In this document: in pieces, positions 17,468 through 25,424 of the stretch
Layout: every line of letters starts with the position of its first letter
How positions within the stretch are numbered: the first letter of the stretch is position 1
Assembly: GCA_009782875.1 (NCBI GenBank)
Contig: WRIE01000004.1
Coordinates: 1-64,000, forward strand
From: Eubacteriaceae bacterium
GTDB taxonomy: Bacteria; Bacillota; Clostridia; Eubacteriales; Anaerofustaceae
Direction of reading: 5' to 3'
Length of the DNA: 64,000 nucleotides
Notes under the pieces: model-generated
What the model saw: only the letters and a program-made list of their open reading frames with translations
The model's database searches: none
What the model was told of the DNA's origin: nothing
Position numbers and translations under genes: made by a program

Positions 17468-19564
17468 GTGGATCCAACAACAATTCTTAAACAGTATTTT
17501 GGCTACGACTCCTTTCGCGAGGGGCAATTAGAGCTGGTCAATGCCCTTGCCAGTAAAAAAGATGTGCTGGCGATAATGCCCACAGGCGCAGGGAAGTCTC
17601 TTTGTTTCCAAATTCCAGCCATGATGCTTCCTGGAACGACTTTGGTTGTATCCCCGCTGATTTCCCTCATGCGAGACCAGATCCAAGCCCTTGCAGCCTG
17701 TGGCATTCCAGCAGCGTTTATAAACAGCTCGCTCCAGGATGGGGAAATCCGGCAAACCTTTTCTAACGCATACAAGGGCCTGTATAAGATCATATACATA
17801 GCGCCTGAGCGCCTTCTGACCCCTTCAATGCTGAGACTTGCAGCCAGCTTGGATATTTCCTTCATTGCAGTTGATGTAGCGCATTGTGTGTCCCACTGGG
17901 GACCGGATTTTCGAAAAAGCTACTTGGATATTCCCAAGTTTGTGGATTGCCTTCAAGCTAGGCCAGTCATTGGGGCTTTCACGGCAACAGCTACCCCTTG
18001 GGTGCGTGATGATATGTTAAAAAACCTTAAGCTAAAGAAGCCTCTTGTAAAAGTGACAGGTTTTGACAGGCCTAACTTGTACTTTGAAGTGCTTGAGCCA
18101 AAAGACAAGAATTATACACTTCGCCAGTACCTGAAAGAGAATGGCGGCAATGGAATCGTCTATTGCTCTACCCGCAAACAAGTGGAAAAAGTCACTGATA
18201 TGCTGTTGTCAAATGGCTTTTCTGCTGTGCGATACCATGCGGGGCTAACGCGAAATGAGCGCATAGAGTCCCAAGATGATTTCTTGAATGACAAGGCAAG
18301 AGTAATAGTAGCAACAAACGCCTTCGGAATGGGCATAGATAAATCAAACGTCAGGTTTGTAATCCATTATAACCTTCCGATGAGTGTGGAAAGCTATTTC
18401 CAAGAAGCGGGCAGGGCAGGAAGGGATGGATTGCCAAGCGACTGCATTTTATATTTTGCGAAGAACGATATTAATATTGCCCGTTTTTTGATCAACAAAA
18501 GCTATAACAAGATTGAAATTGCCCGCAATATGAAGTTATTGGACCAAATGGTGGGTTATTTCAATACTAAAGGCTGCTTAAGAAAATATATGCTTAATTA
18601 TTTCGGCGAACAGCCACCTGAGAGTTGCAGTGGTTGTGCAAATTGCGCACGCAGCGTTGGAAAAAAATACTTGTCAACAGACGCCAGCGAAATCCTCTCC
18701 CATATCATGTTATTAAACAATATGGGCAAACAGCTAGCATTCTCCCAAGCCTGCGATATACTGCTCGGCAAATCAGAAGCTTATTTCGAGTTGCCTACTT
18801 ATGATTCAATGAGGGGATATGCATCCCGCTATATCCAGCAATTAGTTATGTGCTTGAAAGAGGCAGGGTATTTGAAGAATACTGCTAAGCTGGCATTGAC
18901 ACAAAAGGCGGTCAAAGAGCTTAATTTCCAAGTTGTGCAAAAGCCTGATGGGGCAACAACACGAAGCGCAACATCGAAGGGTAAAGTTGATCTGCATAAA
19001 TACCTATTCTCCGAGGAATTGTTCACCAAACTCCAATCCCTTCGCCATGTGATAGCAAATGAAGAAAATGTGCATCCCCACAATATCTTTTCTGATGCCA
19101 CTTTAGTGGACATGTGCTACAAGCATCCATATAGCGATGTGGAGTTTTTATCAGTCAAAGGTGTAGGGGAGTTCAAGCTGAAACAGTATGGCGCACGGTT
19201 TTTAGGGTTGCTTGCCCAAGAAGAGCGGATGGCTCAAGGAAAGGCTTGCGCTTTCACGTATGGTTTTTTACACAAGCATATGAAAGTAGAAGAAACTCCA
19301 GTGCAGATTCTAGGGGTGGTTAACAATATCAATGCTGTTTTGGCCAAATTTAACCAGCCAAGGACCAGCTCACAGAGGCTTAGCAGCCTGCTGGTGGATG
19401 CCGGCTACTTGAGACAGTCCCAAGGCGCGCTCATGCCAACATTCGGGGGGCAAAAAATTGGGATTGCACCAAATGCAAATACACAAATGTTTGATCCAGC
19501 TGCCCAGGAAGTTTGCTTGGAGTTGGCAGTGGAAGATCTAAACAACCAGTTGAGCACCCAATGA
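17468..19564 (+). CDS. recQ: RecQ-family DNA helicase with altered DEAH box
   Basis: 698 residues, GTG start, GAGGG about 13 bases upstream. RecQ motif 0 FREGQLELV, Walker A MPTGAGKS (37-44), motif Ia SPLISLMRDQ, motif III GAFTATAT, motif IV IVYCSTRK, motif V VATNAFGMGIDKSNVRFVIH, motif VI QEAGRAGRDG. Zinc domain: CLRKYMLNYFGE then CSGCANC. HRDC domain near 515-590 and a C-terminal extension of about 100 residues. The Walker B box reads D-V-A-H (136-139) where the family has D-E-A-H. Codon 137 is GTA (17876-17878), one base from GAA. Loss of this glutamate would be expected to cripple ATP hydrolysis. Everything else is intact. Confidence 0.93.
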   Translation: MDPTTILKQYFGYDSFREGQLELVNALASKKDVLAIMPTGAGKSLCFQIPAMMLPGTTLVVSPLISLMRDQIQALAACGIPAAFINSSLQDGEIRQTFSNAYKGLYKIIYIAPERLLTPSMLRLAASLDISFIAVDVAHCVSHWGPDFRKSYLDIPKFVDCLQARPVIGAFTATATPWVRDDMLKNLKLKKPLVKVTGFDRPNLYFEVLEPKDKNYTLRQYLKENGGNGIVYCSTRKQVEKVTDMLLSNGFSAVRYHAGLTRNERIESQDDFLNDKARVIVATNAFGMGIDKSNVRFVIHYNLPMSVESYFQEAGRAGRDGLPSDCILYFAKNDINIARFLINKSYNKIEIARNMKLLDQMVGYFNTKGCLRKYMLNYFGEQPPESCSGCANCARSVGKKYLSTDASEILSHIMLLNNMGKQLAFSQACDILLGKSEAYFELPTYDSMRGYASRYIQQLVMCLKEAGYLKNTAKLALTQKAVKELNFQVVQKPDGATTRSATSKGKVDLHKYLFSEELFTKLQSLRHVIANEENVHPHNIFSDATLVDMCYKHPYSDVEFLSVKGVGEFKLKQYGARFLGLLAQEERMAQGKACAFTYGFLHKHMKVEETPVQILGVVNNINAVLAKFNQPRTSSQRLSSLLVDAGYLRQSQGALMPTFGGQKIGIAPNANTQMFDPAAQEVCLELAVEDLNNQLSTQ

Positions 19565-19708: not shown

Positions 19709-21508
19709 TCAGCTGTATACTTTCAATGCAACTGCCCGAAGTTTTGAAGCGTCTTCCAAGCTCACTAAAGCTTGGAGGTATATCCCATCCTCTTGGTATT
19801 TGCTGTCGATAACTTGGCCTGTGGTATATATCTTTGAGACCAGTGAGCCGGAGTCAAATGGCAACAGGACTGCCAGCACACTGCGCATCTCGGAAAGCTT
19901 TTGGGTGATGGCATCTGCTAGCTGTTCCATGCCCTGGCCTGTCAAAGCTGACACGGAAAGGCTGTCCTTGGATTGGAATGTTTCTCCTGAAATATCAGCT
20001 TTATTATATACAGTCAAGATAGGTTTGTCATCTGCCCCCAGGAAAGAAAGCACATCATTGACAACCTGGATTTGCTGCAACCGGTCATCTGCTGAAGAAT
20101 CCACCACCAAAACAAGCAAGTCGGCATACTTAACTTCTTCAAGGGTTGCTCGAAAAGCGTCCACAAGATCGTGGGATAATTTGTTGATAAACCCTACAGT
20201 ATCGACAAGCAAAAAATCCCCGCTGCCAACATTGACCTTCCGGGACACAGGATCCAAAGTAGCAAACAGTTTGTCTGCGACTAGCACATCACTGCCGGAC
20301 AGGTAATTCAAGATTGTCGATTTTCCGGAATTTGTATAACCTACGAGCGCTACAATCGGCACATTTATGCGCTCCCTTGAAACTCTGTTGACATCCCGTT
20401 GCTTCTTGATTTTGTCTATCTCTTTCTCCAGCTCATTCAACCGCCGCCTAAGCAGGCGCCTATCAACTTCCAGCTGGGTTTCGCCTTCGCCCCTGCGGGC
20501 GCCGCCGCCACCACCTCCGCTTCCACCTCCGCCCATGCGGGAGAAGTGGGTCCAATAACCAGCCATTCGCGGAAGCAAGTACTTCATTTGTGCCAGCTCA
20601 ACTTGAAGCCGGCCTTCATGGGTTAGCGCGCGGTCAGCAAAGATGTCTAGTATCAGCGAGGTCCTATCTAAAATATCGATCTTTTCGCCCAGCTCTTTTT
20701 GTATATTGCGTATCTGTGCCGGGGACAATTCATCGTCGAATATGACTGTGTCTGCGTTAAGGGCTTGTGCCTCCAGCGATAAATCGTGGAGCCTGCCAAA
20801 ACCCAGATAGTAAGCCCTGTCAGGTCTCGAGCGTGATTGCAGCACAGATCCTATCGTTATATAGCCTGCAGTTTTTGCCAACTGGTACAGCTCCTCAAAT
20901 GGCTGGGGGGCATCCCGGTCTCCCTCAAGGCCAACCAGGATGGCTTTGGCAATCTCTGATTCCGATTTGATTGTGTCAGCTGGTGAAATACTGGCGTCAG
21001 CTATAAAAATTTCGTCCCAAAGCAAGTCATCAGGTATTGAGCTGGCCTTGTAAGGACCGAATAAACGCGCTTCAATCTTGTCGTTTGAAACAGCTTCCAA
21101 TATTCCAACCTGCATGGAGACCGCTTTCCCGCCCAACACGCCCACGGCCGCCATTGCGTCAAGCCGGATGTTGATTAGCGCTTGGATGTCAGCGTCAGAC
21201 AATGAAGGATTGCCCCCAGGGTGGGTATGGATGCAGCGGATTCCGCTCAGCCGCGATTTAGAGCGCCGCTTGCGGATAACCGGAATTTCCACCCTGTCGG
21301 TTTCTCCCACAGCGACTTTAAGCACATATCCTGAACGGTCGATATAAACCATGGCTTCCCGGCTGGTGGCTTCAGTGAAAGAAGCCAGCAAATCCAGCAT
21401 TTCTTCTGTGGCAAATTGGTTTCTGTTTATTTCTATTTCGTAAATGCCTTTTAACCGCTCGATATAAGATTTTCGGATTCCGTCTAGGTTTCCATTAATT
21501 TCACTCAT
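19709..21508 (-). CDS. hflX: HflX ribosome-associated GTPase with JAMM-like N-terminal domain
   Basis: 599 residues; the bacterial core is about 400. Residues 1-185 are an extension containing HTHPGGNPSLSDAD (94-107), which fits the metal-binding pattern H-x-H-x7-S-x2-D of JAB1/MPN (JAMM) domains, with a possible upstream Glu51. Then comes the HflX N-domain (YYLGFGRLHDLSLEAQALNA; IFDDELSPAQIRNIQ), the glycine-rich loop (326-336), RGEGETQLEVDRRLLRRR, and the G domain: G1 GYTNSGKST (390-398), G3 DTVGF (436-440), G4 NKAD (502-505). HflX splits stalled ribosomes. The extension could be catalytic or structural. Single gene with its own terminator. Confidence 0.93.
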   Translation of the reverse strand: MSEINGNLDGIRKSYIERLKGIYEIEINRNQFATEEMLDLLASFTEATSREAMVYIDRSGYVLKVAVGETDRVEIPVIRKRRSKSRLSGIRCIHTHPGGNPSLSDADIQALINIRLDAMAAVGVLGGKAVSMQVGILEAVSNDKIEARLFGPYKASSIPDDLLWDEIFIADASISPADTIKSESEIAKAILVGLEGDRDAPQPFEELYQLAKTAGYITIGSVLQSRSRPDRAYYLGFGRLHDLSLEAQALNADTVIFDDELSPAQIRNIQKELGEKIDILDRTSLILDIFADRALTHEGRLQVELAQMKYLLPRMAGYWTHFSRMGGGGSGGGGGGARRGEGETQLEVDRRLLRRRLNELEKEIDKIKKQRDVNRVSRERINVPIVALVGYTNSGKSTILNYLSGSDVLVADKLFATLDPVSRKVNVGSGDFLLVDTVGFINKLSHDLVDAFRATLEEVKYADLLVLVVDSSADDRLQQIQVVNDVLSFLGADDKPILTVYNKADISGETFQSKDSLSVSALTGQGMEQLADAITQKLSEMRSVLAVLLPFDSGSLVSKIYTTGQVIDSKYQEDGIYLQALVSLEDASKLRAVALKVYS

Positions 21509-21820: not shown

Positions 21821-22987
21821 TTAATAAGTTGCGTTGTTGTGAACCCACTCATGCACTACACGGAGTTTGTCTGGGTCTACGTCGCCAGGAGCAATAAATG
21901 ACCTGTCATTTCCAAAGACCAAGCCGCCGCCCGGTGCAAACAAATCGATGACTTTTTTAGCTTCTTCAATGCCTTCTTCTGCACTGATGAACCTGAGTGT
22001 GGATGATGGCACACCAGCGATAACGGAGAATTGGCCGTTGAAGCGGCGGTTGAACTCTTCATACTCTCTGGGTTCGAGGAGCGCTACGAGGCTTGATTTT
22101 GGAAGATCTTGCAGATAGTCATAATGCTGTGCCCATGGTCCTTCAAAGTTGGACAGATATTTTGTTCCTGCGTTGAAATATGATTCAACACATTTTCTGT
22201 AGTGTGGCCAATAAACCATGCCGAAGAATTTTGCGTTGAGGAATGTTGGAACGTGGTGCTGTTTTGCTGCCCATGGGAAAGGTGGAAGCGTGGTGCCTGG
22301 TTTTGGCAGCCCTGCTTCAGTGTATGGCAACATTACTTCAATGGCTTTGAGAACTTTCTCTGGATAGCGGCGAAGGTCTGCCAAAGCAGCTGTGAAACCG
22401 CGGTAATAATCGAAGAAGCTGTCCATGAACACTGTGCCGCCGCCTGCGCCTTGTACGCATGGAAGGCCAAGTTGCTCTTTAACTGCGCGGATGGCATATG
22501 TCTCGCGAGTATTGATCTCGCGTTGTTTGATGATGTGTGACAATGTCGCATAAGATGCTTCTTCATCATTCTCTTGGAAATAATCTAATTTCCTCAATGC
22601 CATTTTTGTAATTAATTTGTACGGGTCCTCATAAAATTCCTCGTACTCTTCAACGGTCATGTTTGAATGGTCTTTGTGCTGTGGTGTGACACCGTTTGGT
22701 GATACGTAATGCTCTTTGCTGTTGATCATGACACTCAGTTTTGTTCCGTGGCTGGCGGCAGCTGCCCTTATGCCATCATAGAAGAAATCTGTGTTTGCTT
22801 TCACAAAGCATTCAGCTTCAAGATCAAAGTTCTCCCATACGTCTTCAAGCTTTAGTCCACAGTAGGCGATGGCCCAGTGGGATACTTGGCTTAGAATTGG
22901 AACCCTGTCAGGCTCCTGCACTAAGTCAGTTGCTGTGTTGAAACGGTTTACCCGCTCATCATAGAGTTTCTGCATTTCTTCAGTCAT
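21821..22987 (-). CDS. UROD-superfamily methyltransferase-like protein, copy 1
   Basis: 388 residues, a (beta/alpha)8 UROD fold. QEPDRVPILS (23-32) is the N-terminal arginine motif of this superfamily; next are YVSPNGVTPQHKDHSNM and FDYYRGFTAALADLRRYPEK. At the place where MtaA/MtbA-type enzymes carry the zinc motif H-x-C-G, this protein reads NFEGPWAQHYDYLQDLPKSS. It ends APGGGLVFGNDR...APGD. By family it may transfer a methyl group to or from a corrinoid protein; the substrate is unknown. It is the most divergent of the five copies and the only leftward one. GGAGGA sits 3 bases from a hairpin. Confidence 0.82.
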   Translation of the reverse strand: MTEEMQKLYDERVNRFNTATDLVQEPDRVPILSQVSHWAIAYCGLKLEDVWENFDLEAECFVKANTDFFYDGIRAAAASHGTKLSVMINSKEHYVSPNGVTPQHKDHSNMTVEEYEEFYEDPYKLITKMALRKLDYFQENDEEASYATLSHIIKQREINTRETYAIRAVKEQLGLPCVQGAGGGTVFMDSFFDYYRGFTAALADLRRYPEKVLKAIEVMLPYTEAGLPKPGTTLPPFPWAAKQHHVPTFLNAKFFGMVYWPHYRKCVESYFNAGTKYLSNFEGPWAQHYDYLQDLPKSSLVALLEPREYEEFNRRFNGQFSVIAGVPSSTLRFISAEEGIEEAKKVIDLFAPGGGLVFGNDRSFIAPGDVDPDKLRVVHEWVHNNATY

Positions 22988-24260: not shown

Positions 24261-25424
24261 ATGACCGAAGAAATTAAAAAACTGTACGATGAGCGAGTCA
24301 ACCGTTTTATTACCACATCAAACCTGAATGAGCCTGACAGGGTTCCGATTATGAACTCCACAGGAGTTTGGGCGATTGCTTACTCAGGCTACACTTATGC
24401 AGACCTGTACGAGAACTTCGATTTAGAGACCGAAGTCTTTTTAAAATCCCATGAAGGTTTCAACTACGATGGAACCAGAACCGGAGGCGGAATCAACCAC
24501 ATGGTCAAGTTCCATAACGAACTTGGCAGTTTCCAAAACTTTATCTCGCCCAATGCAGTCACACTGCAGCATGCAGAAACTTCCAGCATGGAAGCAGACG
24601 AGTATGACGAGTTTATCGCAGACCCCTTCCGTTTCATCGCCAATAAAATTGCTGTAAGGAAGATTACTGCTTTCCAGCAGGATGATGAAGAGGAAGTTTA
24701 CAGGCTGATGAGCGAGCTTTTCCAGAAACCCGCCCAAGTAAGAGCTAAAACCACCGTTGCAGATGCTATCAAAAACAAACTTGGCATACCCGCGATTTCA
24801 GGCGGCAGCAATATAGTGAACCCGATCGACCAGATATTCGACTTCGTTCGTGGATTCAAAAACACAATGACTGATATCCGCCGCAGGCCGGAAAAACTTC
24901 TTGCAGCTGTCGAAGCGATGATTCCATATGCTGAGCGCAACATACCAAAAGGGCCATTGCCTGAGTTCCCATGGATTACTGACAACCACCATATCGCCAA
25001 ATTCCTGACAAGCGAATTGTTTGGCAAATTCTACTGGCCTTACTACAAGACATCAGTCGAAGGAGTATTCAACGCTGGGACAAAATTCCTCTCACACTTT
25101 GAAGGATCCTGGGAGCAGCATTATGACTATCTACAAGACCTGCCAAAGAAGAGCTTGATATGCATCCTTGAGGATGACGAAGTAGAAGTTTTCAAAAACC
25201 GTTTTGCCAACCAATTCACAATTTATGCCGGCATCCACAGCAGCACATTAAGGTCCGGCGATATCGATAAGTGCAAAGACGAAGCTAAGAAAATAATCGA
25301 CATCGCTGCGCCGGGCGGAGGATACATATATGGCCTTAGAAACGGCCTGCTTGCCCCTGGGGATGGAGATGCTGAAGTTATCCGCGCTTTGAACAAATTC
25401 ATACTAGAATACGCAGTCTATTAG
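24261..25424 (+). CDS. UROD-superfamily methyltransferase-like protein, copy 2
   Basis: 387 residues. LNEPDRVPIMNS (22-33), FISPNAVTLQHAETSSMEAD (94-113), FVRGFKNTMTDIRRRPEKLL, then DNHHIAKFL (241-249) and SHFEGSWEQHYDYLQDLPKK (278-297), where the classical zinc motif would be H-x-C-G and is here H-F-E-G. It ends IAAPGGGYIYGLRNGLLAPG and a final Tyr. Very close to copy 3; a 56-base block is identical. Strong AGGAGGG site. The partner microprotein begins 9 bases after the stop. The reaction is probably methyl transfer, but the substrate cannot be read from the sequence. Confidence 0.85.
   Translation: MTEEIKKLYDERVNRFITTSNLNEPDRVPIMNSTGVWAIAYSGYTYADLYENFDLETEVFLKSHEGFNYDGTRTGGGINHMVKFHNELGSFQNFISPNAVTLQHAETSSMEADEYDEFIADPFRFIANKIAVRKITAFQQDDEEEVYRLMSELFQKPAQVRAKTTVADAIKNKLGIPAISGGSNIVNPIDQIFDFVRGFKNTMTDIRRRPEKLLAAVEAMIPYAERNIPKGPLPEFPWITDNHHIAKFLTSELFGKFYWPYYKTSVEGVFNAGTKFLSHFEGSWEQHYDYLQDLPKKSLICILEDDEVEVFKNRFANQFTIYAGIHSSTLRSGDIDKCKDEAKKIIDIAAPGGGYIYGLRNGLLAPGDGDAEVIRALNKFILEYAVY

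Follow-up and report, generated by a model that had tools for sequence, protein, structure and literature searches.

HflX is a widespread GTPase in ribosome rescue and antibiotic resistance, and the JAMM zinc-protease site is otherwise known from ubiquitin-removing enzymes. In the DNA analysed here (the window, a stretch of 64,000 nucleotides from contig WRIE01000004.1 of a Eubacteriaceae bacterium), an hflX gene encodes a long N-terminal extension that carries a motif of the JAMM type. This raises the questions whether the extension is a JAMM domain at all, and what such a domain might do when joined to a GTPase that splits ribosomes. The relevant features all lie on the minus strand:

19709..21508 (-): hflX open reading frame, 599 amino acids, JAMM-like domain plus complete HflX GTPase (NCBIfam, structural alignment)
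21023..21421 (-): section of the extension that can be aligned with JAMM/MPN structures, residues 30–162 (AlphaFold2 model, structure comparison)
21188..21229 (-): HTHPGGNPSLSDAD, residues 94–107, with predicted ligands His94, His96 and Asp107 and predicted catalytic Ser104 (roles by analogy with AfJAMM, from the accessible part of PMC300881)
21356..21358 (-): Glu51, predicted acid-base residue (Glu in 86 of 88 genomes, aligned with the Glu of RadC)
19712..20947 (-): HflX core, residues 188–599, comprising N-terminal domain, helical hairpin, GTPase and C-terminal domain (Pfam, NCBIfam, structural alignment)
20315..20341 (-): GTPase P-loop GYTNSGKST, residues 390–398 (most residues invariant in 74 full-length rows)

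A complete HflX preceded by a JAMM-like extension

The NCBIfam equivalog model TIGR03156 (GTP_HflX) matches residues 188–538 with 405.6 bits, against a cut-off of 216.75. When an AlphaFold2 model of the full-length protein (pLDDT 86.0, pTM 0.63) was compared with solved HflX chains, 8a57_D (Z = 39.5), 7yla (Z = 38.6) and 5ady (Z = 36.6) aligned at 38–41% identity. These complete chains, starting from their own residues 1–8, match the model from about residue 185 onward, and since both they and TIGR03156 begin at residues ~185–188, residues 1–185 represent an addition placed before a complete HflX. Known HflX thus resembles residues 186–599 over its whole length, with the GTPase motifs intact, but lacks the 185 extra residues that form the JAMM-like domain. 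Invariant in an alignment of 74 full-length rows are G390, Y391, T392, N393, G395, K396 and S397 of G1, D436–F440 of G3 (DTVGF), and N502, K503 and D505 of G4 (NKxD).

The HflX portion shows some variation of its own. Residues 317–349 (20462–20560 of the window, minus strand) form a Gly-rich hairpin loop of low model confidence, which is probably the loop that reaches the peptidyl transferase centre. This expanded loop characterizes the window's clade, unlike known HflX structures, and the hairpin segment counts 31–33 residues in the window protein and its 20 nearest rows compared to 26 in 48 of 55 tallied rows; extended HflX loops are described as largely actinobacterial in the accessible part of PMC12493154. 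Two extension-bearing HflX proteins (L102, L104) have frames of just 535–537 amino acids in which similarity to the query stops at about residue 505, and judging from these sequences they may be without the C-terminal domain. Another locus (L019, 4001–4705) has a Gly/Pro-rich insert of ~40 amino acids past the JAMM motif region of the extension.

A preliminary description of this DNA had pointed to the pattern H-x-H-x7-S-x2-D at residues 94–107 of the extension, where it is present exactly as claimed, and had suggested a comparison with JAB1/MPN folds. The AlphaFold2 model of the extension alone, calculated from 78 sequences (pLDDT 87.3, pTM 0.82), contains helices at residues 35–48, 105–114 and 160–174 and strands at residues 52–57, 62–67, 90–97, 118–125, 128–141 and 144–154. 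A VIA-align 2 search with this model returned PfJAMM1 from Pyrococcus as the top hit (5ld9, Z = 7.8, 113 residues, 3.8 Å); 5lda, RadC (2qlc, Z = 7.2) and Rpn11 (4owp, Z = 6.7) were also among the leaders, as was AF2198 (AfJAMM; 1oi0, Z = 6.5), with Z-scores below 8 throughout, a range that may reflect just a common arrangement. MPN/JAMM chains, judged largely by title, appear to make up 49 of the best 50 rows, the sole other row being a cytidine deaminase (5jfy). The expected fold family therefore gives the best alignments, although Foldseek is more reserved: it listed 789 matches at E ≤ 10 and none at E ≤ 0.001, its best high-probability JAMM match being 5lda (E = 0.0057, probability 0.98).

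Sequence profiles lead to the same families. The domain profile, run against PDB sequences, scored best with AMSH-like JAMM deubiquitinases (E = 0.031) and placed IHTHP..LS.VD in register, while phmmer with the single extension found just two chance-level matches in the PDB. The window protein scores 17.5 bits with Prok-JAB (PF14464), under the curated cut-off of 25, and we therefore call the extension JAMM-like rather than a member of that Pfam family; among its 78 aligned members, 54 match Prok-JAB at E ≤ 1, the best at 5.5e-5. For RadC, the corresponding scores are 17.5 bits with PF04002 (cut-off 22.1; 35 of the 78 members at E ≤ 1) and 13.8 bits with TIGR00608 (cut-off 133.85). At the Pfam and NCBIfam cut-offs the extension of the window protein is thus unnamed, and PHROGs gave no consistent match, the best common family being shared by 7 of the 78. 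An hhalign comparison with 21 RadC rows, which are motif-selected because the motif in a long frame was required of the 30 fetched loci, yielded a score of 27.8 (E = 0.0021, probability 13%), compared to a best score of 21.1 among 24 unrelated neighbour families used as controls. It aligned Glu51 and the HxH/S/D residues with those of RadC, in agreement with the RadC-like motif noted in the preliminary description. RadC (PF04002, JAB fold) is a bacterial JAB protein that differs in its HNHPSG motif and in being encoded by a separate gene, which the window's genome also has (G000:C5:36907-37263).

Each of these lines of fold and sequence evidence is moderate, and all of them run in one direction. 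The extension very probably has a JAMM-like fold with an intact site. It shares the predicted fold and the full E-Xn-H-T-H-X7-S-X2-D site with AfJAMM, PfJAMM1 and AMSH, but differs from these proteins in its fusion to a ribosomal GTPase and in having no known ubiquitin-like partner, and its activity is a predicted one.

Conservation and distribution of the site

Taken by itself the motif is weak evidence. It arose in 9 of 200,000 shuffles of the 187-residue extension and occurs twice within 129,916 residues of neighbouring open reading frames, so that conservation has to carry the case. In a first set of loci, Glu51, His94, His96, Ser104 and Asp107 were present in all 81 rows (the query and 80 loci), a set biased by one of its search peptides, GIRCIHTH, which itself contained HTH. 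T95 and C92 were likewise invariant there, and C92 is found in 57 of the 88 genomes of a wider set. The latter was drawn independently of the motif, by searching genomes, the window's own included, with a profile spanning the entire domain. A phylum-wide draw gave the domain in 28 of 149 genomes and a class draw in 61 of 196, i.e. one third, and combined they contain 88 distinct domain-bearing genomes. All five site residues are kept in 85 of the 88, as found with a profile that was built on motif-bearing rows and may be biased towards such matches, but that still recovered three motif-less members. The Glu51 position holds Glu in 86 genomes. Its proposed partnership with the motif and the conservation of the five residues among HflX homologs, both raised in the preliminary description, are in this way upheld, the catalytic role of Glu51 being predicted.

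The remainder of the domain is far more variable, with a median pairwise identity of ~31%. The columns of lowest entropy among residues 1–189 are G68, E51, H94, T95, H96, S104, D107 and P97, so that the eight least variable columns amount to the JAMM signature and one glycine. The domain alignment of the first set holds 78 of its 81 rows, L019 (insert), L065 (split frame) and L077 (start missing) being excluded. The window protein contains E-Xn-H-S/T-H-X7-S-X2-D, the pattern that defines JAMM/MPN+ in the accessible part of PMC300881.

In the three exceptions, L162 (G285), L105 (G117) and L106 (G039), the domain is present while both histidines, Ser104 and Asp107 are gone; Glu51 is retained in L162 and lost in the other two. 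L105 and L106 belong to one family, and L162 is distant from both on the HflX tree, which indicates that the site residues disappeared together on at least two occasions. Such joint loss is what one expects once a catalytic centre is no longer needed, and the site-less members also show that the domain can be retained for a reason other than catalysis. A 596-residue HflX frame in G175 was considered as a further carrier of a degenerate domain and rejected, as its extra frame bears no resemblance to the domain.

In all 88 genomes the domain and the HflX core share a single reading frame, and the domain was only ever found within HflX, which itself scores above cut-off in 145 of the 196 genomes of the class draw. 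Its holders are mainly Bacillota and, once, Fusobacterium; record titles name Pelosinus, Sporomusa, Propionispora, Caloramator and Phascolarctobacterium. The preliminary description mentioned N-terminal extensions in clostridial HflX; the JAMM-type domain is conserved in clostridial and other HflX proteins. The HflX of Fusobacterium animalis has 600 amino acids and an intact site. Two records of the plasmid collection matched, both from Fusobacterium: one of 218.8 kb, in which hflX was read, and one of 2.1 Mb. Viral contigs, searched with the single peptide IRCIHTH, contained no relatives. The closest relatives of the extension come from metagenome-assembled genomes, at up to 64% identity.

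A tree of HflX cores from 146 of 162 loci, with short or identical rows removed by rule, holds 87 rows with the domain and 59 without. Domain presence requires 8 changes on this unrooted tree, counted by a quick method, versus 46 in shuffles, and at least 3 of the 8 are forced by well-supported branches. An ancient fusion followed by repeated loss fits this distribution, in which an unrooted count does not separate gain from loss. Within the window's family (G000, G341–G352), the HflX N-terminal domain is encoded in 2 of 13 genomes, the window's own and G344 (a 429-residue frame), and the JAMM domain is absent from all 12 other genomes. Given this scarcity of both domains, the window's hflX was possibly acquired from outside, or the contig was mis-binned.

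Proposed activity and rival readings

In AfJAMM, two histidines and an aspartate hold the zinc, a glutamate holds the water and serves as acid-base, and a second serine stabilises the intermediate (PMC300881, accessible part). Counterparts of all these residues exist in the HflX extension. The fold resemblance, the intact and constrained site, the fusion to HflX in every case and the GTPase motifs were computed directly; from them we infer that the domain binds zinc and hydrolyses a substrate at the ribosome. A site kept almost universally across many bacteria probably performs real chemistry at the ribosome, and we consider the predicted domain likely to be catalytically active.

Within HflX, ND1 displaces helix 69 at the 50S interface (PMC12493154, accessible part), and because the extension is attached straight to ND1, its predicted active site should lie at that interface. 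With GTP, HflX binds the 50S subunit at its intersubunit face and splits the ribosome; the fused JAMM domain would thereby be held beside ND1, near helix 69, and could then cleave a nearby protein at a peptide or isopeptide bond, be it a ribosome-bound factor, a flexible ribosomal-protein tail or a conjugate. On balance we favour the reading in which HflX brings a catalytically competent JAMM metallo-(iso)peptidase, the extension, to the 50S face; action of the domain on a protein at the ribosome is, similarly, somewhat favoured. A narrower version, in which a ribosome-bound JAMM isopeptidase trims or removes a protein at the opened 50S interface during ribosome rescue, is tentative, and equally tentative are its candidate targets, namely the tail of a hibernation factor, a ribosomal protein tail or a conjugated tag. 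Counting against an active enzyme are the 3 of 88 genomes that have the domain without the site and the 59 of 146 HflX tree rows that do without the domain.

Those site-less members, persisting in two lineages (L162; L105 with L106), would suit a pseudo-enzyme or scaffold that gives mechanical help in 70S splitting or 50S docking, with catalysis irrelevant. There is a precedent in the N-terminal extension of mycobacterial HflX, an addition at the same end of the protein that is reported to promote splitting and the disordering of H68–H71; it measures 39–58 residues, compared to 185 and a catalytic motif in the window's HflX (PMC12493154, accessible part). However, it is precisely the catalytic set that is kept in 85 of 88 genomes while most columns drift, and the residues disappear together, as a set, which makes a scaffold an unlikely account. 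A RadC-like metalloenzyme that is active but no peptidase, with rRNA, tRNA or a different small substrate as its target, is likewise rather unlikely. The extension does resemble RadC by profile, structure and hhalign, and the function of RadC is given as unknown in the accessible part of PMC300881 (2003), but it has the motif spelling of AMSH-type JAMM peptidases, HTHP..LS.VD, whereas RadC reads HNHPSG.

A metal-sensing or redox switch, in which zinc occupancy gates HflX binding or the GTPase, would agree with a site that is conserved though no partner gene accompanies it. We regard it as improbable, since the Glu and Ser, dispensable for mere metal binding, are conserved as strongly as the ligands. 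As to a chance motif within an unrelated fold, the 2 occurrences per 129,916 residues of other open reading frames illustrate that the pattern can arise fortuitously, but conservation and the fold comparison render this very improbable here.

Candidate substrates and significance

For a metallo-(iso)peptidase at the 50S face, the substrate proposed in the preliminary description, a peptide on stalled ribosomes, is now less favoured. According to the accessible part of PMC12493154, accommodation of HflX ND1 clashes with peptidyl-tRNA, and HflX acts on vacant ribosomes or those with deacylated tRNA; the clash makes the nascent chain a poor candidate, and a ribosome-bound factor or ribosomal protein is the more likely target. 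The title of structure 8uu7 lists HflXr, HPF and E-site tRNA together on one 70S, so a hibernation factor can coexist with HflX and HPF is, to that extent, a possible substrate. Long HPF (PF16321) occurs in 173 of 196 genomes, 55 of the 61 with the domain and 118 of the 135 others (hand count), and its co-occurrence, being similar in both groups, is uninformative about the substrate.

Ribosomal protein bL27 bears a cleavable extension in many Bacillota and reaches the peptidyl transferase centre. As the HflX loop extends to this centre too, JAMM-HflX might process the N-terminal extension of bL27 in place of Prp. The window's genome, however, encodes Prp as well as an extended bL27, and Prp is present in 46 of 61 domain-bearing versus 98 of 135 other genomes (hand count). 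Fifteen domain-bearing genomes are Prp-less, and among the 10 of these with a bL27 match (one start cut by a contig end, one without a clear initiator) none has a Prp-type extension. Co-occurrence with Prp and non-extended bL27 in Prp-less genomes thus speak against JAMM-HflX as a stand-in for Prp, and we give the processing of bL27 almost no credence.

Gene neighbourhood is of little help: no neighbour of hflX is conserved, the commonest being common to 11 of 80 loci, and hence no operon substrate is suggested. In the window, hflX is flanked by a RecQ-like helicase and by an open reading frame resembling a nearby URO-D-like one. The helicase (17468–19561, plus strand) reads DVAH at motif II, from residue 136, with Val encoded by GTA, compared to DEAH in its relatives L264, L265 and L266; it is possibly ATPase-dead, or the codon a sequence error. 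The two similar-looking reading frames beside hflX lie at 24261–25424 (plus strand) and 21821–22987 (minus strand); one is recognised as URO-D (PF01208), whereas Pfam yields nothing for the other at E ≤ 0.001.

N-terminal HflX extensions in several Clostridium and in Paenibacilli are mentioned in the accessible part of PMC12493154, which leaves the domain unnamed, and HflX is absent from the accessible parts of PMC6514570 and PMC1779556. A literature search over partly accessible sources, outside most subscription journals and bioRxiv, turned up no paper that describes HflX with a JAMM domain; an earlier description elsewhere is possible. The fusion of a JAMM-type site to a ribosome-splitting GTPase is real and conserved, and apparently undescribed. 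If the domain is active, it would couple ribosome splitting directly with proteolysis and point to a so-far unrecognised substrate at the subunit interface. Should the isopeptidase reading be true, HflX would offer a bacterial parallel to the JAMM enzymes carried on the proteasome lid.
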